The notes under the pieces were generated by a model, which saw only the letters and a list, made by a program, of their open reading frames with translations, was not told where the DNA came from and searched no databases. The translations under genes and the position numbers were made by a program. A stretch of DNA of 64,000 nucleotides from Zygnema cylindricum (taxonomy: Eukaryota; Streptophyta; Zygnematophyceae; Zygnematales; Zygnemataceae), in contig JBBHKE010001487.1 in assembly GCA_037447655.1 (NCBI GenBank), positions 53,371 to 117,370 of the forward strand, written 5' to 3'. Below, in pieces: positions 8,044 through 55,546 of this stretch (position 1 is the first letter of the stretch; each line of letters starts with the position of its first letter).

Positions 8044-9400
8044 TCAACGTCGCCTAACTCTTGCAATCTCTAGGGTCAAGTTTTTAATCAAGCGACGAAC
8101 CTCTATCATGGCTACTTCTTGAGCCACCATCATGTGATTGAGATGATCAACTTCATTACTCAATTGTTCTATTTCCGCTGGTGAAGGGGGCTCATTGATA
8201 GGTGGGACCGTCGGAATTTCCCAAAAATATGTACGTCTCACTTGTACATTTCGAAAGTGTTGTACAACCGCACTTCGGGCATCTAGAAATTCGTTTAGAT
8301 CTGGAGTAGGAATTGCACGACGAAAAATAGTGAATGATCGTGGGTCCCAAGGGTGATAATGGCGCATTAATTCTGGCACATCAATTTCGAATCCGTTCAC
8401 TCGACGGACAATCCATGTGAAACGGTCATCATTAAGTTGAAAATGCCTAATGTATGGGAAATTAGATGCATGGTTGTAAGATGCGATATACAACCATGTT
8501 GTGTGGGCTGGGACATCCGGAGAGATGTCGAGGATTTTTGGGACGGAGGTCAACCACCGGTCGATGGGCCAAGACTCCCCGTAACGCCAATAATTCGGCT
8601 AATCCTTGACCAGGATGGTAATGGGCCGCCGTTGGTCGGAAGCCATCCATGGCCTCATCTCTGACGGGAGGCGGAAAAAATCAGTCGCGTTTTCCTCTGG
8701 GACGGGAACTTCATGGTCGAGTGGAGTTTGAGCCGGTTGTACTGCCATGAGATCTCTTTCACGGTTTGGCAAAAGAAGAAAACCCACGACCTCGTCTTTG
8801 TCAACATACTCTTCCTCCATGCGTCTTTCCGAGCTCTCTAAAGATTGGTCGTCTGAGGTTGTGGGGTCGTCGTCGTATTTTGTCACTGGAATATCTTACG
8901 GTTGGGTTTTTTCCGTCACATCCTCCTCTTCCAAAGGCTCATCCCCATCCTCTATAGACTCGTCCGTCTCGGTTCCTCAGGGGTCATAATCTTCATCGAC
9001 TTCCTTACCCCTTTCTACTTTCCAGACAACTACTTCCTTCGCTCCAACCCTTTCATCGTGTAACCCCCCCTCCGACACACTTCGCGTAACTACCATGTCT
9101 ATCCCCGTTCTTTCCCTTCCCACCTCTTCGGATTCCTTCGTCTTGTCTAATTGAACATCCGATTCCTCCACCTTCCTCTATACAAGCTCTATTCCAACCC
9201 TTTCCCTTCCACCCTCCTCCATTGCCACCCTATTCCTTGATACGTCGTCAGTTGCCTCCCTCTCTCTTACTACGACCTCCGCTCTCGGTATTTCCTGCCC
9301 AGTCGCCTTTACCACATCCCGTACACTAAGAGACTCCTCCCTTTCTCTATTTAAATCCTCCCTTCATTCTACCATTTTCTCCCGCCTCCTCAGCCAACCT
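8044..9400 (-). pseudogene. Second gene of the pogo-like element, copy 1 (broken)
   Basis: Unrecognised protein. Reading on the minus strand, an acidic Glu/Asp/Ser-rich N-terminal part (about 9400-8890) leads to a conserved globular part (8553-8044) with PKILDISPDVPAHTTWLYIA, RHYHPWDPRSF and PTPDLNEFLDARSAV. It ends in a short heptad-like helix (IEQLSNEVDHLNHMMVAQE) and a basic tail, VRRR, before the stop. Copy 2 carries the same protein at 14520-13133 with mostly conservative differences, supporting real coding. Copy 1 is interrupted by stops near 8977 and 8886 and a shift near 8599-8553. It might be an accessory DNA-binding or gag-like factor; no family was recognised. Confidence 0.6.
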
Positions 9401-13132: not shown

Positions 13133-14520
13133 TCAACGTCGCCTAACTCCTACAATCTCTAGAGTCAAGTTATTAATCAAGCGACGAACCTCTATCATGG
13201 CTATTTCTTGAGCCACCATCTTGTGATTGAGATGATCAACTTCATTCCTCAATTGTTCTATTTGCGGTGGTGGAGGGGGCTCATTGACAGGTGGGACCCT
13301 CGGAATTTCCCAAAGATATGTACGCCTCACTTGTACATTTCGGAAGCGTTGTAAAACCGCACTTCGGGCATCTAGAAATTCGTTTAGATTTGGAGTAGGA
13401 ATTGTACGATGAAGAATACTGAATGATCGTGGGTCCCAAGGGTGATAATGGCGCATTAATTCTGGCACGTCAATTTTGAATCCGTTCACTTGACGGACAA
13501 TCCATATGAAACGGTCATCATTAGGCAGAAAATGCCTAATGTATGGGAAATTAGATGCATGGTTGTAAGATGCGATGTACAACCATGTTGGGTGGGCGAG
13601 GACATCCGAAGAGATGTCGAGGATTTTTGGGACAGAGTTCAACCACCGATCGATGGGCCGAAGCTCCCCGTAACGCCAATAATTTTGGTTAATCCTCGAC
13701 CGGGATGTAATGGGCCGCCGTTGGTCGGAAGCCATCCATGGCCTCATCTTCGACGGGAGGCGGAAAAAACCAGTCGGGTTTTTCCTCTTGGACGGGAACT
13801 TCATGGTCGAGTGGAATTTGAGCCGGTTGTACCGCCACGAGATCTCTTTCACGGTTTGGTAAAGGAGGAAAACCCACGACCTTTTTTTTGTCGACATACT
13901 CTTCCTCCATGCGTCTTTCCGAGCTCTCCCAAGATTGGTCGTCGGAGGTTGTGGGGTTGTCGTCGTATTTTGTCACTGGAATATCCTACGGTTGGGTTTC
14001 TTTCGGCACATCCTCCTCTTCTAGAGGCTCATCCCCATCCTCTATAGACTCGTCCGTGTCGGTTCCCGAGGGGTCATAATCTTCATCGACTTCCTTACCC
14101 CCTTCTACTTCCCGGACGGCTACTTCTTCCGCTCCAACCCCATCATCCTGTAACTCCCCGTCCGACACACTTCGCGTAACTACCATGTCTGTCCCCGTCC
14201 TTTCCCTTCCCACCTCTTCCGATTCCTCCATCTCGTCTAATTCAACATCTGATTCCTCCACCTCCATTCCAACCCTTTCCCTTCCACCCTCCTCAATTGC
14301 CACCCTATTCCCTAATACGTCGTCAATTGCCTCCCTCTCTCTTACTACGACCTCCGCTCTCGGTATTTCTTGCCGAGTCGCCTTTACCACACCCCCTACA
14401 CTAAGAGACTCCTCCCTTTCTCTATTTAAATCTCCCCTTGGCATTCTACCCCTTTCTCTCGCCTCCTCAGCCAACCTTTGCCTTTCTTCCGCCTCCGCTA
14501 TTGCCCTCGCCCTAACCAGT
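13133..14520 (-). pseudogene. Second gene of the pogo-like element, copy 2
   Basis: Better preserved copy of the unrecognised protein. The frame opens at about 14520 (first ATG at 14444; a spliced upstream start is possible). Residues 1 to about 170 are acidic and low-complexity (runs such as EEEDVPKE). After a stop near 13986 the frame continues with TKYDDNPTTSDDQSWESSER and EVDHEV-like text, shifts near 13690-13735, then runs open to 13133 through KILDISSDVLAHPTWLYIA, FPYIRHF, MRHYHPWDPRSF, LNEFLDARSAVLQRFRNVQV and a C-terminal coiled-coil-like helix (IEQLRNEVDHLNHKMVAQE). It lies upstream of the transposase on the same strand with a repeat cluster between them. No family was recognised; an accessory transposition protein is one possibility. 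Confidence 0.55.
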
Positions 14521-25966: not shown

Positions 25967-26919
25967 CACATGCTGTCACATTTGACTAACCGAGGCATGT
26001 AGTTTTCTATCTCAAACACTCTCTCTATCCTGAATCTTTTTAATCCTCTATCCTGGAAGAGAGGGTCTCTCGAAAATATGTTTTCCAGTTGAAACTGGGA
26101 GGTATTGATTGACGAGTTCCCTCGTTTAAGTCGGGAGAGAAGGTCCTATCTCCTAATTTTTCTAAGTCCTATCTCTCTCACAAACTCTATCTTTTGATGT
26201 ACGGAGCCAATCAGTTTACACTGTCGTACACAAAAGTACAGCTGCCGGTGTACTTTCTGTACGGACATTGTACGACATGGCCTAAATGTCGACACATGTC
26301 ATATCCGGATTCGCTGCCGTAATCTCTGGAGATACCACGATCTAATGTAATTTCGCCACGTGTCATCCGATATGGCGATGACCACAAACCACCGAAATCC
26401 TCTTCCGCGATCTCGGCGTTAATTCCCGCCGTCCGATTAAATTCACATTAAATCGTAGCTGTAATAAATAAATGCGCGGTATTCGTTTCTTATCCGTACC
26501 GTAATCCGTACTTTTACAATACTGGATCTATGTCTCCCGTAAAACTGTTTCAGTTAAATGGACTATCCTACGTGTTAATGTTTAACTAATTATCAAACCC
26601 TATAATACGTAACAATATGTCTAGACTTAACGGTTAAGGCTACCGGCTAAAAGCTGCTTACTGTCCGGCAAGTACCAGGATCAAATCCCGGGGTAAACAC
26701 ATATTCTTTTAGTAAATAACCCAACGGTAAATAAACTAGTATATATATTTCCCGTAAACCTCTGGATAGCCTAGGTGTCCATGGCTCTAGCTTCCTCTCC
26801 AACTTCTCAGTGACTGCGACAAGTTTGAGAGTTGGAGAGAGAAGTTAGAGGTAGACTGCCTCGGCTTCTTTCTATATTTAGATCTATAAAATATTTTAAA
26901 CAGACCATTAATTTCTACA
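25967..26919 (-). mobile_element. Copia-type LTR (family D), minus strand, 3' part unclear
   Basis: From about 26130 it matches the complement of 28183-29231. It ends ATTAATTTCTACA at 26919, the complement of the LTR 5' end. It contains the plus-strand tRNA-like segment (26619-26700). The part nearest the gap is diverged or different. It sits directly against the left edge of repeat T copy 3. Confidence 0.7.
26619..26710 (+). other. tRNA-like segment in LTR (Pol III-type boxes)
   Basis: A D-arm-like hairpin (CTTA-ACGGT-TAAG) and a T-arm/B-box-like GGATCAAATCC (26678-26688) are spaced roughly as in a tRNA. A TTTT run follows at 26707. The anticodon arm is not standard, so I do not call a functional tRNA. 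Counterparts occur antisense in all other copia-type LTRs of the window. Confidence 0.45.
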
Positions 26920-28182
26920 CTAGACACTAGACTTGTAAAATTCTAACGCGTGGAATTGTCACGTATGATCCAAGATGTAAACATTACATGTGGCATTCGC
27001 CACGCACCTTCGGACATATGCCACGCGCCTTCAGACAAGCGAGAATCAAATCCTAAAGAAAACAACAAGAAAATCTTTGTCGAAGAATGTGCCGTGACGC
27101 CTCCTCCACCATCTGTTGACATCTTGAATTTGCGGCTCCACGTCGAAATAGGAACGACAAAACAACAATAAATAGGACAAAATACGAATGTACAAATTGT
27201 ACATTCACGTAATTTAATTCTGCGGCTGGCTGTACGGATACAAAATCAGATATTGTGCTTTTGGAATCTTTAACTTGATCACTGTTAGAACATGAAACTA
27301 CGTGCATCCAGTCGAAAGAAAGCACGAAAGCAATAGATTCCTTGCTAACACGACGTGGTTGAGAAGTGAACGAAATATTGCTGCCAGTAAACGTATTCGT
27401 ACAACTAATGTCGACGTCTGATGGAGAAGAGGCCTTGGGGTGAAGTTCCATCATACGTTTCTGTGATCGTACCGCCAACTCTACAAACCGGGTTGATTGA
27501 GTCGATGTTCCATCACGTAGAGTCTGTAATCCACGTGTTCTAAATTGACAGGCAGCCACGCAAGCTACAATCCGATATTGAATATCTTTTAGATTTTTAG
27601 CACCGACAAACTTAACTTCAAATCTTCACTTTCCAGTTCATTTTTTAGGGTTTCAGTTTATGAGCATAACGAAAAATCCTTTCAGAGAAATAGTGTGACA
27701 AACAAAAGTTACCTGAAATAGCGTGACGAAGGAATGATACGAAATTACATTTGTATTTTCGGTTGTATTTTTGAAAGCGCGTGTCATGTGCAAATTTCGT
27801 CAATTTTCGTTGGTTTTCTATCATGACACGTAGCGTAATCAACAGCATGTCATGACTTTTTTTTTTGTATCTGCCAACTCACCTCCTAGAGGTACGTCTC
27901 CTTGAGGCACGTTGACAGTTACAGAGAAAAAAAAAGCGAATGCCTCGCGGATGAACATTTGACTGTCAGTATTACCTCCCAAGCCATCGGAGGGTATCGA
28001 CAAGATTATATGTAATGTTGTTTTTTGTATAAAAACAAAATAAGCGGTACGTTTTAGTACGGATAGTCGCGGATTTCTCTAAACTACCCCACTTTTCGTC
28101 TGATGGAAGGTCACCCTTACACGCACTAAAATCACCTAAACAACACTGACGAAATTACAACAGTGTTAACAAAAATGAAATC
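26920..28182 (-). mobile_element. Dispersed repeat T, copy 3
   Basis: Collinear with 18943-20260. The left edge abuts an LTR end at 26919 and the right edge abuts another LTR start at 28183, so both borders are truncations by family D LTRs or their insertion points. Confidence 0.7.
27053..27613 (-). CDS. Repeat T protein, copy 3 (unknown family)
   Basis: Best copy of the protein: open on the minus strand from about 27613 (FVGAKNLKDIQYRIVAC) to the stop at 27053. The lack of a clear start codon suggests a spliced exon. Text conserved with copy 2 includes RTRGLQTLRDGTSTQSTRF, MELHPKASS, CTNTFTGSN, LSFDWMHV, SDFVSVQPAAELNYVNVQF and RRGAANSRC. A hydrophobic segment, SYFVLFIVVLSFLF, near the C-terminus could span a membrane. 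Conservation between copies in the protein frame argues for real coding. I recognise no domain. It may be part of a DNA transposon, given the inverted end motif nearby. Confidence 0.5.
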   Translation of the reverse strand, partial: KFVGAKNLKDIQYRIVACVAACQFRTRGLQTLRDGTSTQSTRFVELAVRSQKRMMELHPKASSPSDVDISCTNTFTGSNISFTSQPRRVSKESIAFVLSFDWMHVVSCSNSDQVKDSKSTISDFVSVQPAAELNYVNVQFVHSYFVLFIVVLSFLFRRGAANSRCQQMVEEASRHILRQRFSCCFL

Positions 28183-29231
28183 TGTAGAAACTAATGGTTT
28201 TATTAGTATTTTCTAGGTCTGAAAAGAAATATAGAAGTCGAGGCAGTCTATCTCTAACTTCTCTTTCCAACTCTCAAACTTGTCGCAATCACTGAGAAAT
28301 TGGAGAGGAAGCTAGAGCCATGGCTACCTTGGCTATCCTGAGGTTTACGGGAATTTTATATATAGGGTTTATTTATTTAATTAAAAGACATGTGCCGACG
28401 GCAGGTTTTGATCCTTATACCTTCCGGACGGCAGATAGGATATAGCCGGTAGCCTTAGCCGTTAAGTCTAGCAGTAATGTTACGTAGCATATAGTTTGAT
28501 ATTTATTTAAATATGTATACGTGCGATAAACCATTTAACTGTAATGAATTACGGGATACATAGATCCAGTAATATATAATGTACGACTTACGATACGGAC
28601 AAAAATCAGTACCGCGCATTTGTTTCGTAAATGAAACAAATACCGCGCATGTATTTATTACGGCTACGATTAAAGCCGAATTTAATCGGACGGCCGGGAT
28701 TAGCGCCGAGATCGCGGAGGAAGATTTCGGCGGTTTGTGGCCATCGCCACATCGGATGACGCGTGGCGAAATTCCGTTGGATTGTGGAATCTCCGGAGAT
28801 TATGGCACCGAATCCGGATTTGACATGTGTCGACATTTTGGCCATGTCGTACAATGTCCGTACATAAAGTACACCGGCAGCTGTACTTTTGCGTACGAAA
28901 CTCAATTCTGATTGGTTCCGTACATCAGTAGATAGAGTCTGTGAGAGAGATAGGACTTAGAAAAATTAGAAGATAGGACCCCCTCTCCCAGAGAGCTTCT
29001 GTACAAAAGGTCAACTTTGACCCTCCATAACTTACTGTTCAGGGGAGCAAATTCAGAGATTTTTTTTGCTATCGACTCAGGGGAGTCTTGCCTTCACACG
29101 GGTGAAGTTTGTCAGAGTTTTTGTCTGCCAAGGTGGCAGTTATTTTTGCTTAAACACAAAGGGGTCAGGATTATCCTAGAGGCTTCTTGGAAGTGTCCAC
29201 TCTGAGGACTTATGGAGGTCTCAGAGTTTCA
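28183..29231 (+). mobile_element. Copia-type LTR (family D), complete
   Basis: 1049 bp, TGTAGAAACTAATGG to GAGTTTCA; the same family as the 3' LTR at 55547-56593 (1047 bp). Features: the AGCCATGGCT palindrome, a tRNA-like minus-sense segment (about 28396-28480) with T4 downstream on that strand, and a 9-bp hairpin ATTTGTTTC/GAAACAAAT at 28618-28641. The flanks (AAATC left, GTATG right) do not match and belong to different repeats (T copy 3 and the methyltransferase element). This is therefore one end of a larger insertion or a rearrangement rather than a simple solo LTR. Confidence 0.85.
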
Positions 29232-29288
29232 GTATGTCATCTTCTAGGTCAATGGACATTCTCTAGGTGGTGTGTCGACCTAGATCTT

Positions 29289-29780
29289 TCATGGAGTAAG
29301 CGAATGGTCTTTGTGTTGGTTTATGACTTTGTCTAATTGTTCGTGTTCTGGTTCCGTTAGTCTCATCCCGAATTTCCACGTTGGTTTTTCAGGTGCGTTG
29401 ATGGTAATGGCTTCTATTGCCTGTGCAAATGCTAGCTGCTCATCCGCGACTAAAGACTGTCCCAGCTCATACTCAACTGGGGGTTGATGCAAACAATTGA
29501 CTGCATGATGCCAATTTCTAGATGGAAATGCAGCCATCCAGTGTGAGACTGCGTGTACTAGTATCGAAGATCTAGCCGCTGTGTATGCTGGGATGGACCA
29601 ACTCATGTGACTAGGTTTCGAGAAATCGTAAATAGTGTGATTTGTGTTAGACTTGGCGGAAGGAGGAAAAAGAGAGAGCTGAAAAGTTGTACCCCGGAGA
29701 GAGGGTGAGGATTTATAAGCAGTGTGTTTGAATGGTGCACCCCCCCCCTAGCCGATTGAGACGGATGATTCTGTGCGTAT
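29289..29780 (-). pseudogene. Linker and start of RT region of the methyltransferase retroelement
   Basis: Open on the minus strand from the C9 run (29740-29748) to the stop at 29289, in a different frame from the methyltransferase; an indel in the G9 run would join them. The end carries PTWKFGMRLTEPEHEQLDKV followed by INQHKDH. This resembles the acidic lead-in (PEQ...LL..YKDVF-type) found just upstream of gypsy-class reverse transcriptases. The RT itself is cut off near 29280 where the LTR-bounded junction lies. The RT assignment is inferred from position and weak similarity. Confidence 0.45.
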
Positions 29781-30922
29781 CGACCGGCTGCAAACCCTAT
29801 GCCCAAGACAAATGACAGGGACTGAGGATCCACAAAACGACCAAGTAAGGTGCAGCGCTGCCGCTCAGTGAGTCCTGGGGCAGCGGTAGTGTCTAGAATG
29901 AAATGGAGGAGGAGTTCCCTCTCTGCAGCAGTAGGTTCTTCTAGACTGCCTGTATGAGTGTTCTGAAGCATAGCCCGTCCGTTATGTGAATATGCATGGG
30001 AGTGTGGATATGCGACTAGTGTAGAAAGTGCACGTAACGGCCGGCCAAGGATGTTAAGAAAAAATGCAGGAGGATAGTCTGTCTGGACACATGTCTGAAC
30101 CATATGAAATGGAAGAAGTGCGTCATGGATGAAAAGTTTAGGCGGTCGAACACTGAGGTTAGCTTCTCGGAGCCGGCCTATGTCCACCAAATTAGTCCAC
30201 TTGGAACGACCCTGGTGGGCCAACAACCCATGGCGTGCGGCATTAATTATTAGTGGCGGTCCAATTAATGATTCGATACGTTTGTAGTCTGCGAGAACTG
30301 TGGGTCGGGGGTCATTATGAGCTGCGACGTTTTCTATGACGTATCCAAAGGGAATGTTTAGTGACTGAAAGAAATCGATAAGATGTAATACCTTAAAGAA
30401 CAGTTTAGTGCGCGGATCCGCCAGACCTAAACCCTTCCCGACTCTAGACATACCTTGACATTCCCAACCTGCGAAAAGGAGGTCGATTGGTTCTAACTCC
30501 GCCAAATGATGATTACCTATCAGACGGATAACCTGTGGTAAAGCTGAATCCATGCTGTGAAAAGCAGACTGCGGTAAGAGGTGAGGGTATTGTTCATGTA
30601 AGATTTGACAGTGATGTAACTGAGCGAGTCTAGCCAAAGGGTCAATATCTACAGAATAATATTGCTTAATTAGCATACCGTTCCTAAGGTAAGAGAGAAG
30701 GGTGGTACCTATACCTGCAAAAAAGTCTAAGATAACGAGACCGTTCGGGTTAGGTTGTAAGCTGACTGGTTTCCATTTAATGGGGGGAAACCCCGAAGGA
30801 TCCATGGCAATAGCGGGTGGATCAGGAATACTGGGTAAAGGAATCGTTATAGGGAACTTATAGAATCTCTCAAAATCTGCCGAGTCAATAATAAAACATG
30901 GGGTGCCAAATAACTCCGGCAT
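29603..30922 (-). CDS. Cytosine-5 DNA methyltransferase domain inside a retroelement
   Basis: 439-codon uninterrupted frame. It would transfer a methyl group from S-adenosylmethionine to carbon 5 of cytosine in DNA. Motif I DFFAGIGTTLL is at residues 66-76, a motif II-like SVDIDPLARLAQ at 90-101, and the motif IV/catalytic loop FAGWECQGMSR at 150-160 with Cys155 (the usual Pro before Cys is Glu). Motif VI YVIENVA is at 194-200 and a motif VIII-like QGRSKWTN at 237-244. The last 55 or so residues after a G9 run are probably out of frame. It lies downstream of gag and protease and upstream of an RT-like lead-in on the same strand, so it is part of a retroelement polyprotein, not a host gene. 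Methyltransferase capture by retrotransposons is known in some algae and dinoflagellates. Activity is untested. Confidence 0.85.
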   Translation of the reverse strand: MPELFGTPCFIIDSADFERFYKFPITIPLPSIPDPPAIAMDPSGFPPIKWKPVSLQPNPNGLVILDFFAGIGTTLLSYLRNGMLIKQYYSVDIDPLARLAQLHHCQILHEQYPHLLPQSAFHSMDSALPQVIRLIGNHHLAELEPIDLLFAGWECQGMSRVGKGLGLADPRTKLFFKVLHLIDFFQSLNIPFGYVIENVAAHNDPRPTVLADYKRIESLIGPPLIINAARHGLLAHQGRSKWTNLVDIGRLREANLSVRPPKLFIHDALLPFHMVQTCVQTDYPPAFFLNILGRPLRALSTLVAYPHSHAYSHNGRAMLQNTHTGSLEEPTAAERELLLHFILDTTAAPGLTERQRCTLLGRFVDPQSLSFVLGIGFAAGRYAQNHPSQSARGGVHHSNTLLINPHPLSGVQLFSSLFFLLPPSLTQITLFTISRNLVT

Positions 30923-30967
30923 CTGGTAAGATTTCTTCCGCTGTTAAATATTTAAGAATATCAGCAC

Positions 30968-31440
30968 CTATGCCAACTGCAGCATAGGCTGGCAAGACAA
31001 ACGCCGACTGAGCCGTGGTAGGCATGGGTTCCGGGCCGAGATAAGAGGTAAGCAAACTTTGCGGTTTGGAAAATTGTTTGGTCTGTACAAAAATGTTTGA
31101 TCATGTATATCAACCCCCCCCCCTAATCGGAAAATGACGTCTTGGTCGACCAAGCACTCATAATCACTACACTTGGTGACCAAGGCGTGAGCGTATATTT
31201 CTGCGAAATCGGATTCCGATTGACAATGAAACTGAAAACAGAGTGGTTCCTTTGTCATACCTAAAACTGGTTCTGTGGTTCCTGCGGAAGTCAACAAACG
31301 CGTGGTAGTGGGTTGTAACGTATCTGCAGTAAGACCTAATTTCTTGGCAAAATGTGATTCGAGAATAATGGGTTTTGCCCCTGTGTCCATGAGAGGTAAA
31401 GCTGGGCTATCCCATTAACTGTGAACACACCTAACTTGTT
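30968..31440 (-). pseudogene. Retropepsin-like aspartic protease of the methyltransferase element
   Basis: The frame opens with LPLMDTGAKPIILESHFAKK, the DTGA active-site motif of retroviral-type aspartic proteases. Just upstream FTVNGIAQL is read in another frame, so a one-base shift separates them (near 31405). Downstream, a G10 run (31114-31123 complement) is read as LGGGVDIHDQ. After about 31070 the better coding text (LGPEPMPTTAQSAFVLPAYA) is in yet another frame, running to EEILP just before the methyltransferase. The protease is thus broken by at least three shifts. It would have processed the polyprotein. Confidence 0.65.
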
Positions 31441-31716
31441 ATCCAGAAAACTGATATGTGGAGTAAGACTGGAACGCTCTTCGAGGGTAATTGCTTAAAG
31501 AGATAGGGTACTCTTGAAATCAATAGATTTAGGGGAGGTATTTTTTAACTCTTAATTAAAATAAAAAGGAAAAGAAAAGCAGAGGCAGCTTGCCTCCACC
31601 TTCTCTCTCTGACCCCCATACTTGTTGTAGTCACTGAATGAGAGAGAGGGCGGTGGAGCCATGGCTGCCTTAGCTCCATAGGCAGGGCTTAAGAGTGATC
31701 TAAGTCACTCTCAACC

Positions 31717-31815
31717 AAAAAGGTTGAATCCGGCATGACTCGAACCTCCGACCGGTAGGGCGAGGCATAGCCGTCAACCCTTACCAGTCTGTCGTAGTAG
31801 TCCGTTAGGATACAT
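31717..31815 (-). other. tRNA-like segment antisense in LTR family G
   Basis: On the minus strand a possible A box (CCTAACGGACTACTAC) is followed about 45 bases later by a textbook B box, GGTTCGAGTC (complement of 31738-31747). A T5 run (complement of 31717-31721) lies about 16 bases beyond. The stems are imperfect. This is the clearest of six such segments in the window. Confidence 0.5.
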
Positions 31816-32286
31816 AAGGTTCGATAGCTATTTAAACAATAGATAGACGACTAATCCGATTAACGGAATTACAAATAGGATACATAGAAGCTAGTTGGGA
31901 AATTAAGTGCGCGCGAAACAAATGTAATGGACATTTGTTTTGAACGGCTGGGAATGAAAGTCGACTTAGATCCGACGGGTCACATCATCGCGGAGATCCT
32001 GGAATGGCCGCTTTGGCGGTTTACGGATGTAACATAACCTGGCGACACTTGGCAATATGTCATTGGGAAGTCAGAATCCCGGGGAGCGTGAGGACAAATG
32101 CGAAGGAGACAGGCGTCCACTCCATGGGCTTATCGTACACAGGCCGTACAAAAAGTACATCGGCCATGGTACTTTTTTGTACTATACAATCTTCTGATTG
32201 GTCCCGTACTTCAGTAGATAGGGGTTGTGAGAGGGTTTAGGACTTAGTGGATTGAGGAGGTAGCCGCCTCTCTCCTAACAAGCTTG

Positions 32287-32293
32287 TATAAAT
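32287..32293 (+). promoter_or_regulatory. LTR TATA box (family G)
   Basis: TATAAAT at the position equivalent to the TATA boxes of family E LTRs. Confidence 0.5.
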
Positions 32294-32488
32294 ATTGGCA
32301 TCTTTGCCACTGGATAATTAATCGCCTGGTAAGGCGTTTTCAGGGATTCCTTTTGCTGTGGACTCAGCAGTCAGGTTATCTATTTATCTGCTAGGGTAGC
32401 AGTTGCTCTTGTTGAAAGTGGGTTAGTCAAAAACTACCTAGAGGCTTCCTCATTCTTGGTTGAAATAGAGGACAGAGAATTGCAGGTA

Positions 32489-33310
32489 CTATGATGGTTT
32501 TGAAGCGCTTGTAATGCATGTGTAGATTTCGTTAGATTTGAGGATTTAGCTTCAATATTCAGTTCGGGGAGCATAGTGGACAGTATTGCTTACTGTTCTT
32601 TGACCTTATAGGCATCTTGTATACTCCTTTGTAGAATGGTTAAGGCCTCCGCGGTGATGTTAGAGGCTGTTTTCGGGATAAGGGCTTTAGATTCTCTAGC
32701 GAAAGATAATGGTATATGAGTGTTAATGGATTTAGACTCACGATTATGATCGGGATTCCCTTTGAAAAGAGCTGCCCGCTGTTGGACGGTTGATTCTCTG
32801 AGAGATTGCCTGGCAAAAGAGGGCATATGGAATACCGTCCGAGCCATTCCAGTTAATTACGGTTTGACCTGTGCCATAAGCGCGGCAAACTGCTCCTTCT
32901 TCATGGCCGCCATGGTTGCCTGCATCTCTGCTCTATCTTGGTCCCTCATGCTGATTTGGGGGACGTGTCATTCTCTCCCCCTTTTGGTGGATTGACCAAT
33001 TAAGTTGAGCGAGCAGGTATACCGATGTTTTTAATTTGATTTTGATAACTGAAATCTGGATTTTTAATATGACATCGCTGTACGTCATGACCTGTTTGAT
33101 TGCACTGAGTACACATGGCTGCCTTGTCTGGACAGCTGCGTGCGTCGTGACCACTGTGATAGCACGGAAACATATACGCCCTCCAGGCGTCGTCAGTAAA
33201 GATCCCATGGCGGGGACCCTTCGAGGTCTTGGGTTGAGCCATGGGTTGCGCGGGTTAGGATCCTGGCTAGGATTTGGATTTGGGTAATCTTTAGGTGAAG
33301 GTTTTGGCCG
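32489..33310 (-). pseudogene. Gag C-terminal part with zinc knuckle
   Basis: Minus strand. A proline/arginine-rich spacer leads to a CX2CX4HX4C zinc knuckle (CTQCNQTGHDVQRC, about 33115-33075). It is preceded by a second, damaged knuckle, FPCYHSGHDARSC, whose first Cys is missing. Downstream, 32847-32590 encodes RESTVQQRAALFKGNPDHNR and ITAEALTILQRSIQDAYKV, then one stop and a further open stretch up to the LTR insertion at 32484. It would bind the element RNA. Several frameshifts are present. Confidence 0.6.
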
Positions 33311-33314
33311 CTTG

Positions 33315-33447
33315 TGTAGTAACTAATGGTTTTATTAGTATTTTCTAGGTCTGAAAAGAAATATAGAAGTCGAGGCAGTCTATCTCTAACTTCTCTCTCC
33401 AACTCTCAAACTTGTCGCAGTCACTGAGAAATTGGAGAGGAAGCTAG
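33315..33447 (+). mobile_element. 133-bp fragment of LTR family D within gag
   Basis: Nearly identical to the first 130 or so bases of the LTR at 28183 (TGTAG...ACTAATGG to GGAGAGGAAGCTAG). It stops exactly at the end of an internal inverted repeat, just before AGCCATGG. No target duplication was found (GCTTG left, TCGAG right). The low divergence suggests a recent origin. Confidence 0.8.
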
Positions 33448-34241
33448 TCGAGATTGTGTGGGAAACTGACCCTCAAATTTTTGTACTGCCTTAGCCTTTG
33501 ACATGAGATCTGATAGGGCCTCACGCAAAGTTTCCATACGTGACCGCAATGCCGGGGTTGTTTCACCAGGTCTGCGTTCGAAATTCAGTAATTCTTTGAC
33601 TTGGTCAGGATTATACATCCAATACTCGTCCTGTAATAAATCGAAAATTAACGAGACTGGATCTCTTAGAGGGACTAGCATTTCAGGTCTAGCCGGAATT
33701 GCAGCCCTAGGCGCCACTGCAAATTGATGAGGAACCTCACGTATTTCAGGTGAAACCTCGTTGCATGCAGAGTCATACACTGCCGGGACAGCGGGTTGGA
33801 AAGGAATATCGAGGCTGCCAATTTTGGCCAAAGCTCCGGAATAAGCGGGTGTTATTTTGGTCATAGCACAAATTTCCTCGTATTTCCGTGTATAAAGGAT
33901 AGGGCAGATCCTCTGAGGTATCTCTCTAGCAAAGAAAAAACGACCCGCAGATCGTAACGGTCTTGATACTGAAACGCAAGGTCACGCTTTTCGGTATTGA
34001 AAAGCATGCGAAAGTGGGACAAAGACATGGTGTCCTTGAGACCAGAAAAACAAAAATGATGTTTACCATTTCCGGTGTCCATGGACGAGGCCATGTCCAC
34101 GCTGAAAGGACTGTGATTAGTGTTTATGGTATGGCCCACTGAGAAAATTGATAGCGATAAATCTAAACCCTGTATGTCAAGCGAGTCGGTGTCCGAATCT
34201 TCCCCCGAATTGTGGGTGAAAGATGAAGAAACAGACGACAT
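33448..34241 (-). pseudogene. Gag capsid-like region of the methyltransferase element
   Basis: Two minus-strand frames, 34241-33861 and 33864-33448, overlap by 4 bp (stop/ATG). The first begins MSSVSSSFTHNSGEDSDTDS and includes CFSGLKDTMSLSHFRMLF and YLRGSALSFIHGN. The second includes LLQDEYWMYNPDQVKELLNF and ALRSRMETLREALSDL. The layout (folded helical region, then zinc knuckle, then protease) identifies gag, although the sequence is not close to families I know. The region is cut at 33447 by an LTR fragment. Confidence 0.6.
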
Positions 34242-34261
34242 AGACCTATGGAGAGAAGAAA

Positions 34262-34632
34262 GAGGAGATCTCGACTGACTGGATGATCCTAAAAATGGAG
34301 ACTAAACTGCTAAGTTTGGAAAAGATATCGGAGGGGAGCTGGCCGTAATCAATTCTCTGGGCGGCCCCCGGTAAGCACTTGAGCTTTTGGTGGTACCAAC
34401 CGGGAACTGTAAATTATTCTAGTCCGTTGGCATGTAACCAGAAGATGGTCTTATCCGGATGCAACTAAATGCCGAACACACACAAAAGTATGCTAATGAC
34501 CGCAAACTAGACACACCACGCAGTTTCGTCTATCCTGTATCACCGGAGTCCGTCTACTCGTAAACTGTCTTTTTCAATCCCACTCACGTCACGCCTTGCC
34601 TAGCAAACTCATGTCACCTGTGCAAGGCCACT
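34262..34632 (-). other. Probable leader of the methyltransferase element
   Basis: Non-coding stretch upstream of gag. No clear primer-binding site was recognised. Confidence 0.35.
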
Positions 34633-34840
34633 TGCGGCCAGATATAATAAGCAGGAAACTATTCAGGGCCACCACGGCCAGATGTAATAAAACAAGAAAC
34701 TGTTCAGGGCCAACACGACCAGATGTAATAAAGTACGAAACTATTCAGGGCCGACACGACCAAATGTAATAAAGCCGGCAACTATTCAGGGCCACCACGG
34801 CTAGATGTAATAAAGCAAGAAACAGTTAATCAAGACGGAT
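34633..34840. repeat. Five tandem units of about 41 bp
   Basis: Units containing GATGTAATAAA...GAAACTATTCAGGGCC begin near 34641, 34681, 34722, 34763 and 34804. They diverge by a few bases each. They lie upstream of gag on the minus strand, so they may be in the LTR or leader of the methyltransferase element. Confidence 0.85.
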
Positions 34841-35960
34841 CAGGGTCAGATCTAGGACCATGCAACGATGATGTCATATGTGGAGGGAACATGCAGCCTT
34901 CGGCAAGATATCTAACCCTCTAAACGGGTGCGCTTGACAACCTATACGCGCCTGCACCCACAAGGATTGGTTGCTCACCTAAAGCGATAACATCCAGTAT
35001 GATACCTTAAATATTCCTCGACGATGCTCCAGTTCGAAGTTATCGTAATCACACCACCACTTAATGCCAAAGTAGTTAGTAGCGTGTTAGGGTACGCGTA
35101 TCAGCTTTAAGCAACGCTCTACCCAACTATTAAAGCAGTTATAATTTTATGTGATAATTCGTGGAAGCTAATTTATATATATTTAAATGTATATAATATA
35201 TTTTTTTCTGGGTTTTTTTTTTTAATATGGAAATTTTTTTTTGAAGTTTTTAGGTTTGCTAGGCATTCTAAATGAGTTAATCCGGTAGGTGGATAGAAAG
35301 ACAAAAACTATACTGGATTTACAGATAAAATCATCAATATCCAACTCAAAGCCCACCAAGCAACGAAACCCTAAAAATTGAGAATGACAACAAACTAGAA
35401 CAATCCAAAGAAAGCAACTAGACTGGAAAAGAAAACAAAACAACTAATCAATGCTCGAATGAAAAAGAAAAACAAATTACAGCACGGGAATATTTGCGAC
35501 AGTAGCCACTAGGCCCTGAAGTCTTGAATATTCCCTACAAGAGTCCATCTAGCAAACAGCAAGCTCTCCTTAACCGGATGAGACCTCCAAAAACAAACCG
35601 ACACTCCCAAAGTCAGAAGAAAAAGAAGATAAACGACGAAAACCACGCAACAACACTAATACACACAAGCTTCACAGTCCAGAATTCGTAGAGCGTGGTA
35701 AGTGAGACACCATCTGGAAGGAAACCTTGCAGACCGATAGATTAGGTAAGGACTTAGTACAGAAAAGAGAGATCAAGAAAGCTCAAAGACAAAGCTAGCA
35801 AGAGACTAAGGATCCGGAAAGAGAAACCCTAATCAACAAGCAACTGATACTAAATATCCCGCAGAGGAATGCTAACTTAAAACTAGAAGAGAGGTTCGAC
35901 AAATCCTGAGAATGTAGATTGCCAGAAAACGACAACTCTCCAATGTTAGATTCCCGTGCT
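34841..35960. other. Unassigned, possible LTR remnant then AC-rich DNA
   Basis: No gene. A 5' LTR of the methyltransferase element would be expected here but cannot be delimited, because its partner is missing. From 35260 to 35950 the plus strand is A-rich with no recognised motif. Confidence 0.3.
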
Positions 35961-37595
35961 GTAATTTGCAACTAATCCTACGCGGCCATATGGCCTTTAT
36001 CCTATGCTGTCGCCTATCGTACAGCTACACTAATTTTTATATGTCTCGGAGCAAGCAGCTTTCTATGTACAAACGCTGCCAGTTTCTAGAGGTGGCCGCT
36101 ATGTGGCCGCCTTGGGAAGCCTTACATCTACACCTCGAGGATGAAAACCCTCCCTACGCTACAAAAGTAATGCATGAACTTGCGAGGGTTTACGACTTGG
36201 ACATGTGTCAAGTATGTAACCGTTTGAGTCCATAAGATGTCAGGTTTGGAGTCGTTCGAATTCGCGAAATCCGATGCCGTACTGCAATCTGATTTCATGT
36301 AGGTAACATGGTACGACCTCAGTCCCGTTCGTATCTTCAACTGAACACTCAGCCACCGACCTATAATATTCATTTATACCCCAATTAGTATAAGAATCCA
36401 CTATAATACTCGCTGACGTCTTGCGGCATGACACACATTTTGTCTTTTTCACTTCACATGAGCTCCAATGTGAGAGCACATGTTTGCATTTAACTTAGCC
36501 GCAAAATTGAAATCTAATCGTGAAGCGTTCATAGAACCAAGACTCAAATTAAAAGACGATGTCATATGGATAAAGTAACTAACACGAAACTAAATAAACT
36601 TCGCACACGATAAGAAAACGCACTTGCGTAGAAATATCGATGAAACTAAATGATAAAAACGCACTTCGTCACGCGTGACCAAATCAAGCCACACTATTTA
36701 CGAATCAATATTGCGATGCGAGGAATTTAGGCGAATGTACGCAAAGTTTCATTTCATAAAGCAAAACTTTCAACTGGAATGTTTCATTAAAGCAAGTGGG
36801 ATCTATATGGTATCATAATTCTTATAAGCAATGGTCCACGCAAAAGTGGAATATACAACATTTTCACCAAAAAATTTAAACATTGGATATCTTTTGAAAT
36901 TTAAGAGGGATTGCTTAATTATTTTCAATCATCTATCATTATTGCAAATTGAGAGTTCTTCACTTTGCGAATCACCAATATGCAGCTCTAGAGTGAAGAT
37001 TTTGACTTAAATGAAAAAAAAAAAAAAAAACAACACATATAAGAATCATTCACGTCAAATGACACACTAATTTCACTCTAAAAGGTAATAAAGCAGGGTG
37101 GGAAAATTTCAGAAAAAGCAAATGGGGAAATTCAAAAAAATGCAAGAAGATTGGAGCATTTTGTTGACATTACAACTAACTAGAGAACTAAACGTTTCTA
37201 CAAACATTAAACTTTTTAATGATAACGAAAAAATTGTATAAAATACCTTAAAACATTCAATGTAAAAAAAATATTAACAAATTCGAAATTGTTTTATGAA
37301 TTCAAAAACGTAAACAAAAGCTTTTCACAACCATACTTTTCTAAATCTTTTTAAAATATCAGGTAAAAAGCCTTATACATTGAAAAAAAACTCGTGAACA
37401 ATAAAGAAACCAATAATTTTTCTAAAATGCCAATCCTCCAAAAGGGATAAATAAAAACAAAAAAACTTAACAACAACACCAAAATCAATAATAAAAAAAG
37501 TTTGATGATAGTATTTAAATTTCATCATTATATGTTTCCAATATGAAAAAAACCAACAATTTAGTGATAATTTCTATTAAATTACAAATATGCAC
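35961..37595. other. Unassigned, A-rich
   Basis: An 89-codon frame at 35966-36235 has no recognised motif. The remainder is A-rich with poly-A runs (near 37014-37030). No repeat shared with other parts of the window was seen. Confidence 0.35.
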
Positions 37596-39828
37596 CATTT
37601 CACATTGACGTTGGCATTGGCATTGGCATTGGCATTGACATTGACATTGACACCGACATTGTCATTGTCATTGCCATTGGCATTAACATTGACATTGACA
37701 TTGGCATTGGCATTGACATTGACATTGACAAAAAAATAAATATTGACATTAGCATCAACATGTATATTGACATTTGCATTGACATCAGCATTGACATTCA
37801 CATTGGTATTGACATTGACATTGACATTGGCATTGACATTGACATTGGCATAAACTTTGGCATTGACATTCACATTGATATTGACATTGACATTAACATT
37901 GGAGTGACATTTGCATTCACATTGACATTGACATTGGCATAAACATATGCATTGGCATAGATATTATCATTTACATTGGCATTGACAATGACCCTGATAT
38001 TGATATAGACATTCGCATTGTCATTTTTATTGGCATTGACATTGACATTGACATTTTCATCGGCTTTGACATTGTCATTGACATTGACATTAGCATTGGC
38101 ATTGGCATTGGCATTGACATTGGCATAGACATTTTTATTGATATTGATATTCACATTCGCATTGGCATTAACATTAGTCTTAACATTGACATTTGTATTG
38201 GCAATGACATTGGCATTGACAATGACATTGACATTGGCATGAACATTGGCATTGAAATTATCATTGACATTAATATTGACATTGACATTGGCATTGACCT
38301 TGTAAGTGACATTAAGATTGACATAGACATTGACATTGACATTAACATTGGTATAAACATTCGCATTGGGATAGACATTGATATTGACATTGACATTGGC
38401 ATTTACATTAGCATTGATATTAGCGTTGACATTGGCATTAACATTGACATTGACATTGACATTCACATAAAAACTGGCATTGGAACAGACATTGACATTG
38501 ACATTAGCATTGACATTCACATTGACATTTGCATTGGCATTCATTTTGACATTGACATTGGCATCGGCATTGACATTGGCATCGGCATTGACATTGACAT
38601 TTGCGTCGGTATTAACATTGGCCTTGACATTGATTTTTCACTGGCATTGACTTTAAAATTGACTTTGGCATTGAGATTGATATTGACCTTGATATTGGCA
38701 TAAACATTGGCAATGACATTGCCATTGATATTGACATTGACAATGGGATTGGCATTGACATTGGCATTGACATTAACATTGACATTGACATTGAAATTGG
38801 CATTGAAATTGACATTGACATTGGCATTGACATTCTCATTGGCTTTGACATTGACATTGACAATGATATTGGCATTGGCATTGATATTGACATTAACGTT
38901 GACATTGACATTGATATTAGCATTGATATTGATATTGACATTACCATTGACATTGACATTGATATTGACATTGACATTCACATTGACGATTTCATTGACA
39001 TTGACACTGTCATTGACTATGGCTTTGGCTTTGACATTGATATTGCCATTGGCATTGATATTGACATTGGCTTTGACATTAACATTAACATAAGCATAAA
39101 CATTAGCATTGGCATAGATATTCACATTGGCATAATCATAAGCAATGGCATAGACATTTACATTGGCATTAACATTTACATTGACATTGGCATTGACATT
39201 GACATTAGCATAAAAACTGGCACTGGCACAGACATTGTCATTGACATAAACATTAACATTCATATTAACATTTGCATTGACCATGACATTGACATTGGTA
39301 TTCACATTGGCATTGACATTGGCATCGGCATTGACATTGACATTGGCATTGGCATTAAAATTGGCCTTGATATTGACATTTCAATGGCATTGACATTAAA
39401 ATTGACATTGGCATTGACAAATCATTCACATTGACATTGACATATACATTGGCAATGGCATTGAAATTGACATTGACATTGACATTGGTATTAATATTGA
39501 CATTGACATTGGCATTGACATTGACTGTGACATTAACATTAAGATTGGCATTGATTTTAATATTTATATTGGCATTGACATTGGCATTAATATTGACTTT
39601 AACATTGACATTGGCATAAACATTGGCATTGGCCCAAACATTGACATTGAGATTTTTATTGACAATGACATTGAAATTGACATTGACATTGGCACCGACA
39701 TACACATTGACATTGACATTGGCATTAACATTGACATTGACATTGACATTGGCATTAACATTGGCCATGACATTGACATTTGTACTGGCATTGACATTGG
39801 CATTGACATTGTAATTGACATTGTTATT
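37596..39828 (+). repeat. Hexanucleotide array ATTG(A/G)C, left part
   Basis: About 2.2 kb of ATTGAC and ATTGGC units in plus orientation, with ATTGAT, ATTAAC, AAATTG and ATAAAC variants, interspersed without an obvious longer period. The frame is kept almost throughout, so several reading frames on both strands stay open (Ile-Asp/Ile-Gly, Leu-Thr/Leu-Ala, Asn-Val/Asn-Ala, Met-Ser/Met-Pro). These are artefacts. Confidence 0.95.
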
Positions 39829-41141
39829 TGTTTTTTTTGAAAAGTTGGTTTCGTGCGTACTCGAGATTTTGTGCGCACGCGACGTTTCGCGTTCGTACAA
39901 TATTATCGAAAGTAATGTGGTGGTTCGAATGGATTTGCGGATTGGGGGAGTAAATGTACGAGTAAAATTAAAGGGACGTGAGGTAGTAATTGAGTGGCGC
40001 GGAATGCGTTAAGAAATGGACGGCGGATCGCGACGCGATCCGATGTGAAGTTTACGAAATGTACGTCGCCGGTACGGAACATATAATTTGAACAAATGTA
40101 ATTTATATGCGACAAGCGACGTTTATGAAAAATGACATGTACTTTATTTGCCGCATTTATTGCAAAGGACGCGGCTGCGGTACGGAAATGATTTCGGTTG
40201 TACGATTATTATTTTTAACAAGTGGACGTGAATGACTAAATTCTCTTCGCGACGTCGTGGGATATTTGACGACTCGCGTGGATTTCGTTTGGATTTTTAT
40301 GACCACGTGGCGCGACATCAAGGGTGCCGAATAAGATCGACGGACGGCGGATATAGGCCGTCGATATTTTTCAAGTAGTAGAGACGCGAAATCGCGTCAA
40401 TCAGACGATGTTTATTTTGGACGTCCCGGATTGTTTGACGAAATACGAGGAGTTCCATTGAGTGACTCAGCATGACTAAGCGTACGATTTTGTAAGATTG
40501 TGTGTACTTTGTAAATATTTACAACAATGGTTTGTCTTTATGTGCATTAGTTATTAGTGTAGATTTACTCTTTTTGACATACCTCGAAGTATTCGGGTTT
40601 ATTAACATTAATTGAGGTAGCTAGTAGATCGCGTACGGCTGGTATGCCTCCGTACACTCAATAATGAGCTCGTGAATATTTGTAGGACTTAGTCATTTTT
40701 AGTCATAGGAACTTTTGGACCAAAAACTGTTTATGGTGTTTTTTGTTAATTTTTATCTGAGGATTACTCTCAGATCTGTTGGCAGAATTATCTGAAATTC
40801 TGCATGTGTGTTCGTCTTTATATTTTTATTATTGTCACAAATTTTCAGGCCTATTGTATGCCTGGTCTGTGTTTTACTTCATTGTGAAGTTAGTCTGTTT
40901 TATCAAAGTTCTGGCAGACTGTTTTTCTGCAACTTTGACTAGATAATGTGATCGCTCTGTCTATTATATTTGTCTGAAACTTTGTGAGGTTATTCCAAAT
41001 CCTAGATACTATCTGTTGATGTAGTTTCAGCTTGTTTTATTATTTTTGTAGAATTCTGTGTTGATTCAAAGTAGGCTGTTTTTGGGTAGTCTGTGGTGCT
41101 TCCGAGGGTGAATCCATGGCTAGAAATGGCTATGGACAACA
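39829..41141 (+). mobile_element. Solo LTR (family A) inserted in the hexamer array
   Basis: 1313 bp, TGTTTTTTTTGAAAAG to TATGGACAACA, flanked by the 5-bp duplication TTATT (39824-39828 and 41142-41146). Removing it restores the array text ACATTG-TTATT-GACATTG. It is the reverse-orientation relative of 15323-16936, without the MITE. Palindromes: CGGATCGC-GAC-GCGATCCG (40024-40042) and GACGCGA-AA-TCGCGTC (40383-40398). Confidence 0.9.
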
Positions 41142-52611: not shown

Positions 52612-55533
52612 TCGTAAGAGGATGTCTATTTCATTGCTGAGAAAGGTAGCCATGCGATGTTTAGGCTGATCTTAAGTAATGAAACGAAGAAACTTTATTA
52701 TGCTTGTGTTCATGATATTATGATGTGGCATAAGAGGCTTGGGCATGTGAATCTAGATAAGTTAAGAGAGATGAAAAAGATGGGAGTGGTGGAAGGGATT
52801 CAGTTCAGTGAGAGTGATGATATACGTGATTGTAGTGGATGTGCTCAAGGTAAAGCGCACAGATTACCCTTTCCTAAAACAGCCACCTATAAGGGAGAAA
52901 AAATTCTAGATCTAGTACACACAGATATTTGGGGACCGGCTAGAGTGCCCTCACCGGGGGGGAAGAGATTTATGATGACTATAACTGATGATTGGTCTCA
53001 GTATTCCCGGGTGTATTTTTTGAAAAACAAGTCAGAAGCTCAAGATTGTTTTAGACAATATAAAGCATGGAGCGAAAAACTCCATGAAACTCCAATCAAG
53101 AGAGTAAGGAGTGACAATGGTGGAGAGTATACTTCTAACCAGTTTGAGGATTTTTTGAGGGAAGATGGGGTCCAACACCAAAAGACAGTTCCAGAAAATT
53201 CGGAACAGAATGGGGTAGCTGAATGGTTAAATAGAACACTAAGTGATAGTGCTAGAAGTATGTTGTCAGATAAAAAGATAGGAAAAAGGTTTTGGGCAGA
53301 AGCAATGAACAGTGCTAATTACCTCAAAAATAGAGTTCTTACTTCAGATATAAAAGATCAAACACCTTATGAGAGATGGACAGGCCGGAAACCAGACATA
53401 TCCCACTTAAAGGTTTTCGGCAGTCAAGTATTCAGTCTAGATACAGATCGGTCTAATTGGAAGCTAGATCCTAAAGGAAAACCGGGATACTTATTAGGAT
53501 ATGATGAAGATGTTAAAGGATATAGAGTTTATGATCTAAAAAAGGAAGATATAATCTTAGTAAAACATCTAGTAGTTATGGATGAAGGAAAGTCTGTGGA
53601 TCCCTTCAAATATACGAAGTCATTAAAAATCACATTTGAGTCAGAAAATTCTGATGACTTTGAGCTTCTTGACTATCTAGGTTTTAGAGACGATGACATT
53701 CTTGCAGGTACAAATCAGACCAAGAAGGACTCGGCTGTGGAAACTCCAGTGAGAACTCTACCCGAAGCGGAAAACGTGGTGGAAATTGATTCGGAATCAA
53801 GGGATAGGGGAGAAGCCGAGTTTGTTCGAAAGAATCCACGAGAACCATCTATTCCGGCCTCAAATTTTGAGGGGGGAAGGAGAAGTAGCAAAAGACTGCA
53901 AGAAAAATAGGTTAATAACAAGGTAACTAAACTATCTCATCAAGATGAACCTCAAACTTATGGAGAGGCGAAGACTTGTCTAGAAAAAAATCAGTGGAAG
54001 ACAGCCATCAATGAGGAGATGGCCTCAATTATGGCAGCCGATACTTGGGAGCTGGTGGATTGTCCACCTAACCAAAAACCAATCGTTTGTAAGTGGGTTT
54101 TCAAATTAAAACTGAACCCAGATAACACAATCGAGCGCTACAAGGCCCGACCAGTGGCAAAGGGATTTACACAAAAGGAGGGAATTGACTACGAGGAAAC
54201 CTTTGCCCCTGTGGTCACATTTCCCTCTGTCCGCATACTTCTCAGCCTGGCAGCAGCGGAAGACATGGAAGTGCACCAGATGGACATCAAAACAACCTTT
54301 TTGCACGGAGAATTGGAAGAGGAGATCTTCATGCGACAACCCGAAGGGTTTGTGGAGGAAGGAGAGGAGAGTAAAGTATGCCGACTGATTAAATCTCTCT
54401 ATGGTTTCAAACAGGCGCCTCGACAGTGGAATAAGAAGCTTGATGAGTTTCTTACTCGTCTGGGATATATCCGGATCAGCTCAGATCACTCAATCTATGT
54501 TTTCGAAGATGAGGAAGGTTTTATATTTATTGTAATTTATGTTGATAGTTTGCTTGTTTTAAGTAAATCAATGGAAAAAATTAATAAACTGAAAACCGAT
54601 CTTAAGGGGAGATTTGAAATGAAGGATATGGGGGAAGCAAAATATATTTTGGGGATTCAAGTAGAGAGAGACCGAAAAAGAAAAATTATAAGATTGACTC
54701 AAAAGGAAGCAATAGGGAACATGCTGGAAAAATTTCAAATGGATAAAGCTAATAGTTGTACAACTCCAATGGAGTTGAAGAAGGGAAGTGAGGGGAGTGA
54801 GGAAGAAGGAGCCATAGTCTTAGACGAGGAATTATCTCCTGAAGAACAGAAGTTCATGCAGACTATTCCTTACAGACAAGTAGTGGGAAGTCTAATCTAT
54901 TTTATGAATTGTACCCGGCCGGATTTAGCTACAGCTGTAGGAGTGCTGAGTAGAAGTCTAAATGCTCCCACTAAGAGGGATTGGGAGGCAGCTAAGAGAG
55001 TCCTTAGATACTTGATAGGAACTAGGGATCTATGGTTGCATTTGGGTGGGGAGAATACTGACATCACTACTTGGAGTGATTCCAGTTATGGTGATGCTTC
55101 GATGAGGAGATGCACTTCTAGATATGTATTATATGTGGGTGATGGGGCTTGCTATTGGAGTAGCAAACAACAAAAGGTTATTGCTCAGTCCACCATGGAG
55201 GCTGAGTATATGGCCTCTTGCTCTGCTGTAAAAGAATTGATGTGGGTCAAGTCTTTGCTTGATGAGCTTGGTCATCTTAAGAGTGGTGTTCAGAAAATAT
55301 TTTGTGATAATCAGGCAGCAATTGCTATTTTTGCCAATCCTAAACATCATTTTAAAGCCAAACATATGGACATTAGACTCAGCTTTGATAGAGAGAAAGT
55401 AGAAAATAAAATAATCACTTTAGAGTACCGACCAGATAGTGAGATGGTAGCAGATATGATGACCAAACCTGTGCATTCCCCTAAGCTAATTTTCTGCAGG
55501 GAGAAGTGTGGTCTGAAATTAAAGATTGACTAG
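52612..55533 (+). pseudogene. Ty1/copia pol: integrase, RT, RNase H
   Basis: One long frame interrupted by a single TAG at 53908-53910. Order: GAG-pre-integrase HHCC zinc finger (WHKRLGHVN...CSGC), integrase DDE core (HTDIWGP, RSDNGGEY, NGVAEWLNRT), linker, RT (KWVFKLKLNPDNTIERYKAR, MDIKTTFLHGEL, active-site box YVDS), RNase H (TTWSDSSYG, EAEYMASCSAVKEL, FCDNQAAI), stop, then the polypurine tract at 55534-55546. The usual YVDD is YVDS here, so the RT should be inactive. Gag, protease and the 5' LTR are missing. The integrase-RNase H order is the copia order. Function: reverse transcription and integration of the element. Confidence 0.92.
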
Positions 55534-55546
55534 AAAATAAGGGGAG
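55534..55546 (+). promoter_or_regulatory. Polypurine tract
   Basis: AAAATAAGGGGAG directly before the 3' LTR. The degenerate relative at 23981-23993 has AAAATAAGGGGA in the same place. Primes plus-strand synthesis. Confidence 0.7.

Follow-up and report, generated by a model that had tools for sequence, protein, structure and literature searches.

Does a cytosine-5 DNA methyltransferase that lies among the remains of a retroelement belong to that element, and what would it do there? The question is raised by a stretch of 64,000 nucleotides (hereafter, the window) at the end of contig C1112 of the Zygnema cylindricum genome assembly (352.8 Mb in 2689 contigs), where an initial annotation, made from the sequence alone, had placed such an enzyme between the protease and the reverse transcriptase (RT) region of a retroelement. 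The window copy, at positions 29235-36433 of the minus strand, is a single damaged retroelement with a Ty3/Gypsy-type Pol polyprotein that has lost its 3′ part, and the family to which it belongs (family 1) is almost certainly one of DNA methyltransferase (DNMT)-bearing elements with a Gypsy Pol.

The evidence comes from other copies in the genome, which the initial annotation had proposed to search for with the methyltransferase frame as query. The search scored 95 matches out of 1929 first-look candidates. One copy (C1344:87534-94718) is open in a single frame over 2395 codons and encodes, in this order, zf-CCHC, an aspartic protease, DNA_methylase, RVT_1, RNase H, an integrase (H2C2, rve) and lastly a PHD finger. 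On contig C449 a frame of 1643 codons carries the same series from CCHC as far as RNase H, and the frame that follows it holds rve and PHD. The arrangement first claimed for the window is therefore genuine. Around the methyltransferase of 20 further copies (about 3 kb on each side), the protease was found upstream in all 20 and RT downstream in 17, and CCHC was found in 16. The best match of the family RT in the PDB is Ty3 (E 4.9e-63), and the Pol order of protease, RT, RNase H and integrase, with a Ty3-type RT, is present, the DNMT being placed between protease and RT. The rve and H2C2 matches in the scanned Pol pieces indicate a DDE integrase, and these pieces gave no match to a tyrosine recombinase, the mark of DIRS elements. 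In four copies (C1344, C1407, C449 and C1915) the scan covered the entire integrase C-terminus, and each of them has the PHD finger; a fifth scanned piece, C783, stops within rve. Chance neighbourhood, be it of two unrelated insertions or of a host DNMT gene, might be suspected from the window copy, which is broken by inserts and has no RT, but it is ruled out by the open frame of C1344, which spans all the domains, together with the recurrence of protease and RT around the enzyme, and we give it practically no credence.

The enzymes of C1344 and C1407 have 393 of 395 codons in common and the two terminal A repeats of C1344 (see below) are identical along 931 nt; copying has therefore been recent. 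A second family (family 2), of which one copy was read, as far as part of its RT (C544:127150-129650), likewise joins a DNMT and a gypsy RT within a single open frame. Its 106 genome matches (104 candidates scored of 1974) have no overlap with the 95 of family 1. Between the two families, identity is 35-41% for the methyltransferases and 51-55% for the RTs, compared with 38-43% between these RTs and that of a different gypsy in the window. A single DNMT capture that preceded the split of the families would fit these values.

As to the class of the enzyme, which rests on PDB ranking among solved C5-methyltransferases, the best relatives of the window enzyme are DNMT3B and DNMT3A (DNMT3B E 1.2e-4), and for the family-2 enzyme DNMT3A (5.8e-13) ranks ahead of HhaI (2.5e-5) and DRM2 (3.9e-4). 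The vertebrate enzymes DNMT3A and DNMT3B are thus the closest solved relatives by sequence, from which the present enzyme differs in that no PWWP or ADD match was seen in it, that it lies within a polyprotein, and that in family 1 a glutamate precedes the catalytic cysteine. Since the Pro-Cys (PC) of motif IV was not found in family 1, the enzyme is called DNMT3-like here, and not a member of DNMT3. In the window copy, motif IV reads WECQ, with the catalytic cysteine at codon 30458-30460, and motifs I, IV, VI, VIII, IX and X line up with the other genome copies. The frame with motifs I, IV, VI and VIII that had been noticed at the outset is indeed a methyltransferase frame, of 446 codons. A single-sequence structure model of the enzyme was useless (predicted local distance difference test score, pLDDT, 34.5).

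The conserved reading frame that the initial annotation asked about was assessed with the ratio of nonsynonymous to synonymous substitution rates (dN/dS). Of the 21 pairs formed by seven copies with open or nearly open frames, 10 had usable dS (the other 11, those with C449 or C1915, being saturated), and in these 10 dN/dS of the methyltransferase was 0.08-0.41, with a median of 0.18; the median for RT was 0.16 in 6 of 15 pairs of six copies, the copy L025 having too little RT. When decayed copies were included and pairs with saturated dS omitted, the medians were 0.19 for the methyltransferase (26 copies, 325 pairs compared) and 0.21 for RT (25 copies, 229 pairs long enough). The enzyme is under constraint, and selection acts on it roughly as strongly as it does on RT.

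Among 26 genome copies, the catalytic cysteine is kept in 25 (the remaining one has a stop there), the Glu-Asn of motif VI in 22 and the RxR of motif VIII in 15, its losses often being to Cys or His, and all three are kept in each of the six elements fetched at length (C1344, C1407, C783, C2310, C449 and C1915). The cysteine of motif IV and the glutamate of motif VI are described as cooperating in catalysis (PMC4802922, PMC6709928), and in M.HhaI the conserved contact of the motif IV proline goes via its carbonyl (PMC4802922). Because the motifs are kept, the cysteine and glutamate have these roles and the proline contact is of this type, activity seems the better supposition, and the family-1 enzyme is, judged from its motifs, probably a working DNA methyltransferase.

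Several observations weigh against this and against methylation by the element of its own copies. All 26 copies, and the window copy likewise, have Glu instead of Pro before the catalytic position, a change that holds also in subfamilies merely 64-67% identical and by which activity may be altered, and RxR is lost in 11 of the 26, including two (L025 and L028) of the seven from which dN/dS was calculated. In yeast, DIRS enzymes gave CpG methylation and the Gypsy enzyme of Klebsormidium nitens gave none, a result considered inconclusive by its authors (PMC5890265). The observed/expected ratio of CpG is 0.79-0.93 in most of the family-1 stretches measured and 0.74-0.77 in three decayed ones, to be compared with 0.96 for the window overall, 1.09 for a DNMT-free gypsy in the window, 0.44 for the window copia and 0.67 for the family-2 enzyme. 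When substitutions were polarised with C449 and C1915, C>T changes in the methyltransferase (23 copies) were 1.7-fold more frequent at CG (0.113) than at CH (0.068), but other changes were also raised at CG (0.045 vs 0.031, 1.45-fold), and RT (22 copies, two of them without RT) had no CG excess of C>T (0.084 at CG vs 0.085 at CH). The CpG ratios and the polarised changes in methyltransferase and RT thus gave no consistent CpG-decay trace of self-methylation, which had been suggested at the outset and which the element may nevertheless perform.

These same data may be explained by an enzyme that was retained but is no longer canonical, the replacement of Pro by Glu having turned it into a Pol subunit that binds nucleic acid or has some other new role. 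The uniform glutamate, the weak and inconsistent CpG trace and the retention of PC or PCQ elsewhere (in the family-2 copy, in 5 of 5 phage enzymes read and in one viral contig) would all suit such a change of role, but the retention of Cys, Glu-Asn and, in part, RxR argues for catalysis, and the main-chain carbonyl through which the proline of M.HhaI makes its contact (PMC4802922) is a group that glutamate has as well. We therefore regard repurposing as unlikely, and continue with the reading of family 1 as carrying a probable methyltransferase.

The phage enzymes just mentioned match at about 23% (228 records; the five read were chosen among the top matches). The viral-contig search gave one weak relative, 43% identical over query residues 151-206, and a search of genome contigs for an origin outside eukaryotes gave 85 pattern matches and no confirmed relatives. 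A phage, viral or other non-eukaryotic origin of the enzyme is not favoured.

The ends of the element are unusual. A search for full-length copies with long terminal repeats (LTRs) and an intact RT had been proposed, and C1344 is indeed open through RT, but the ends are split in the form A-coding-B-A-B and are not canonical LTRs. This arrangement is whole in C1344, C449 and C1915, with aligned lengths of 931, 693 (in several pieces) and 1475 nt for A and of 243, 186 and 192 nt for B, respectively; in C1407 and C2310 the 3′ B-A-B is present and the start of the 5′ A was not found. The 5′ end is thus A and the 3′ end B-GC-A-B; the two ends are not formed by one and the same direct repeat, and for this reason we do not class the family among the canonical LTR retrotransposons. 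The outer ends are TGTC...GACA, and the inner B-A junction reads GACA-GC-TGTC in C1344, C1407, C449 and C1915, and GACA-AC-TGTC in C2310. Target duplications of four identical bases flank C1344 (TTGG) and C1915 (CCCT); at C1407 and C2310, with no located 5′ start, they are not assessable. A run of G adjoins the first B (B1) in the four copies read (C1344, C1407, C449 and C1915), and the scar between the second A and the second B (A2 and B2) varies: AAATA+GGG in C1344, AAAT+GGGG in C2310, TAT+G in C1915 and TA+A in C449. Across this A|B joint C1407 lacks some 226 nt of A together with at most about 15 nt of B, its remaining 705 nt of A being 99.9% identical to C1344.

One mechanism that could generate such ends is permuted integration from a circle. 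Reverse transcription would yield LTRs of the form B-GC-A, from polypurine tract to primer site; the ends of the complementary DNA (cDNA) would be joined into a two-LTR circle; and the integrase would cut the internal GACA-GC-TGTC palindrome, leaving TGTC...GACA ends and 4-bp target duplications, such that the integrated form would be the reverse-transcription product rotated by one LTR. The G-run before B1, the target duplications at C1344 and C1915 and the variable A|B scar speak in its favour. The main rival is a DIRS-like completion of linear cDNA, with the internal B-A junction as template and no circle integrating. The A-coding-B-A-B arrangement is typical of DIRS (PMC5890265), but the rve integrase, the TGTC/GACA ends and the 4-bp target duplications are at odds with this route, as are the G-run abutting B1 and the imprecise A|B scar, and we find it doubtful. 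The circle model has its own difficulties: it is based on six elements, three of them complete; A2 and B2 are not present in C783, whose flanks mismatch; at C449 one of the four duplicated bases differs (TCAT/GCAT); inspection by eye of the sequence after the first A revealed no recognisable tRNA primer site; and the C1407 deletion across the A|B joint could be post-integration. Permuted integration from a circle can thus be put forward as a tentative proposal, a possibility short of a probability. As a separate observation, at one C2310 locus (L016, C2310:121901-131800) A2 and part of B2 occur a second time, 99% identical, after another 3.2 kb, and a different sequence lies between the two.

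How new is such an element? The initial annotation had taken it as a candidate for an undescribed one, a view that in the strong sense is not supported. KnitGypsy-Dnmt3 of Klebsormidium nitens (de Mendoza et al. 2018, PMC5890265) is described as an LTR Gypsy whose Pol contains a Dnmt3 domain and which combines Gypsy domains with repeats of DIRS-like arrangement, Ka/Ks being below 0.2. It shares with the present family the Gypsy Pol with a Dnmt3-type enzyme, the A-coding-B-A-B ends and purifying selection on the enzyme, and therefore the kind is already known; family 1 is very probably of the same kind, the two being likened by published description. The same report states that retrotransposons of Symbiodinium hold hundreds of DNMTs, and a 2025 survey (PMC12344493) likewise records retrotransposon DNMT3s in streptophytes and dinoflagellates. 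The dinoflagellate elements SymbioDIRS-Dnmt3 and SymbioLINE-Dnmt resemble family 1 in bearing a cytosine methyltransferase, and the DIRS one also in its split repeats, but according to PMC5890265 they use tyrosine recombinase or LINE machinery and not a DDE integrase, and belong to another host lineage.

Two features may distinguish the present family from the known kind, namely the PHD finger and the altered motif IV. The glutamate appears to set it apart from KnitGypsy-Dnmt3, and the PHD finger follows the integrase here, whereas neither "PHD" nor "chromodomain" is a word used in the main text of PMC5890265. Neither a Gypsy element with both a PHD finger and a DNMT, nor the Glu-Cys motif, nor the circle model turned up in the literature search, in which most subscription papers were outside scope and no search was aimed at the motif in retroelements.

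Chromoviruses are Ty3/Gypsy elements with a chromodomain on the integrase. The present family is like them in having a domain of chromatin-reader type at the integrase C-terminus, which is here a PHD finger and not a chromodomain. For Zygnema cf. cylindricum SAG 698-1a, a preprint (PMC9915684) reports a genome of 359.8 Mb in 3,587 scaffolds with 73.3% repeats and a PHD class enlarged at least 9-fold; if it is the same alga, our guess is that part of this enlargement may be the present element. The same source gives 104 Mb for the K. nitens genome, against the 352.8 Mb here.

Returning to the window, the features of its copy are collected in Table 1. The element had been limited to 29235..34260, but its 5′ end is actually at 36433. 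The zinc knuckle, the DTGA protease and the gag-like region that had been noticed are all found on the minus strand; the gag-like frames are without meaningful Pfam match, and zf-CCHC reaches a Pfam E of 3.9e-4 in the C1344 copy. What had been taken as the lead-in to a gypsy RT is the linker towards RT, the RT itself being absent from the window copy. Indeed, no RT or integrase of the family is present in the 64-kb window, the sole RT match (56597-57430, 42%) being to a different gypsy. Besides the two inserts, the copy carries frame changes and stops, and it is therefore a fossil, a dead and truncated member of its family.

Table 1. Features of the DNMT-bearing element in the window, listed from its 5′ end
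Feature	Position	Strand	Evidence or remark
5′ terminal repeat A	35491..36433	-	starts TGTCATGCCG at 36433; A/leader boundary ~35491; matches A of C1344, C783 and C2310
Untranslated leader	34554..35490	-	alignment to leader of C1344
Gag-like region, split in two frames	~33448..34553	-	76-80% identity to the open frame in the same place of C1344
Insert, copy of a 133-nt repeat	33315..33447		same repeat at 28183-28315, 26787-26920 and 55546-55678
CX2CX4HX4C zinc knuckle	33072..33113	-	direct sequence reading; Pfam gives here just zf-CCHC_4, E 0.51
Insert of another repeat, ~0.9 kb	~31522..32439		alignment
Aspartic protease, DTGA	30971..31414	-	PF13650 Asp_protease_2, E 1.7e-4, slightly short of curated cut-off
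C5-methyltransferase, DNMT3-like, 446 codons	29606..30943	-	Pfam PF00145, E 8.7e-9, passes curated cut-off
DNMT-RT linker	29236..29735	-	aligns in two frames with the linker leading to RT in the open copy C1344
Other repeats truncating the element	26133..29234		~1 kb repeat, two inverted copies around a third repeat; 133 nt from here recur at 33315-33447; cut at 29235

Other retroelements are recognisable in the window by eye: a copia-like integrase and RT at 52618-55530 (plus strand), in two frames with one stop between, and another gypsy with CCHC, protease and RT at 56540-58828 (minus strand), which is bordered at about 56590 by the repeat that also cuts off the DNMT element at 29235. From 37500-40000 and onward, long degenerate arrays of 6-, 12- and 18-base repeats are open in several frames on both strands, with runs of Ile-Asp or Asn-Val, and two open reading frames of unknown kind at 8047-8598 and 13136-13972 (minus strand) have much of one protein sequence in common. 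Elsewhere in the assembly, a partial 3′ end of 18S ribosomal RNA (Rfam RF01960; contig C1445, locus L041, 1545-1851) lies close to simple repeats and a stretch of N, and is possibly stray or misassembled; it ends in a motif that is probably of streptophyte type.

As to the function of the whole, the protease would release the methyltransferase from Pol as a subunit within the particle; this subunit would there methylate, probably at CpG, either newly made cDNA or a recent insertion, and the PHD finger on the integrase tail would read histone H3 and steer integration. The explanation in its entirety, that is, a Gypsy-Pol family with DNMT, PHD finger and split repeats that would methylate itself and use the circle mechanism, is one towards which we lean slightly. 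That a Gypsy lineage integrates in permuted form from a two-LTR circle, with a DNMT3-like writer and a PHD reader installing its own silent chromatin at chosen sites, we consider rather unlikely.

For the genome of Z. cylindricum, the capture of a DNMT by Gypsy elements has been a large and lasting success: there are two families, for which 95 and 106 matches were scored, many of these being broken copies, and the enzyme has been under selection for a long time. The combination of permuted repeats with a DDE integrase poses a concrete question about the route by which these elements produce and insert their DNA, and the presence of a methylation writer and a finger of histone-reader type in one polyprotein makes the question of whether a transposon sets its own epigenetic state directly testable.

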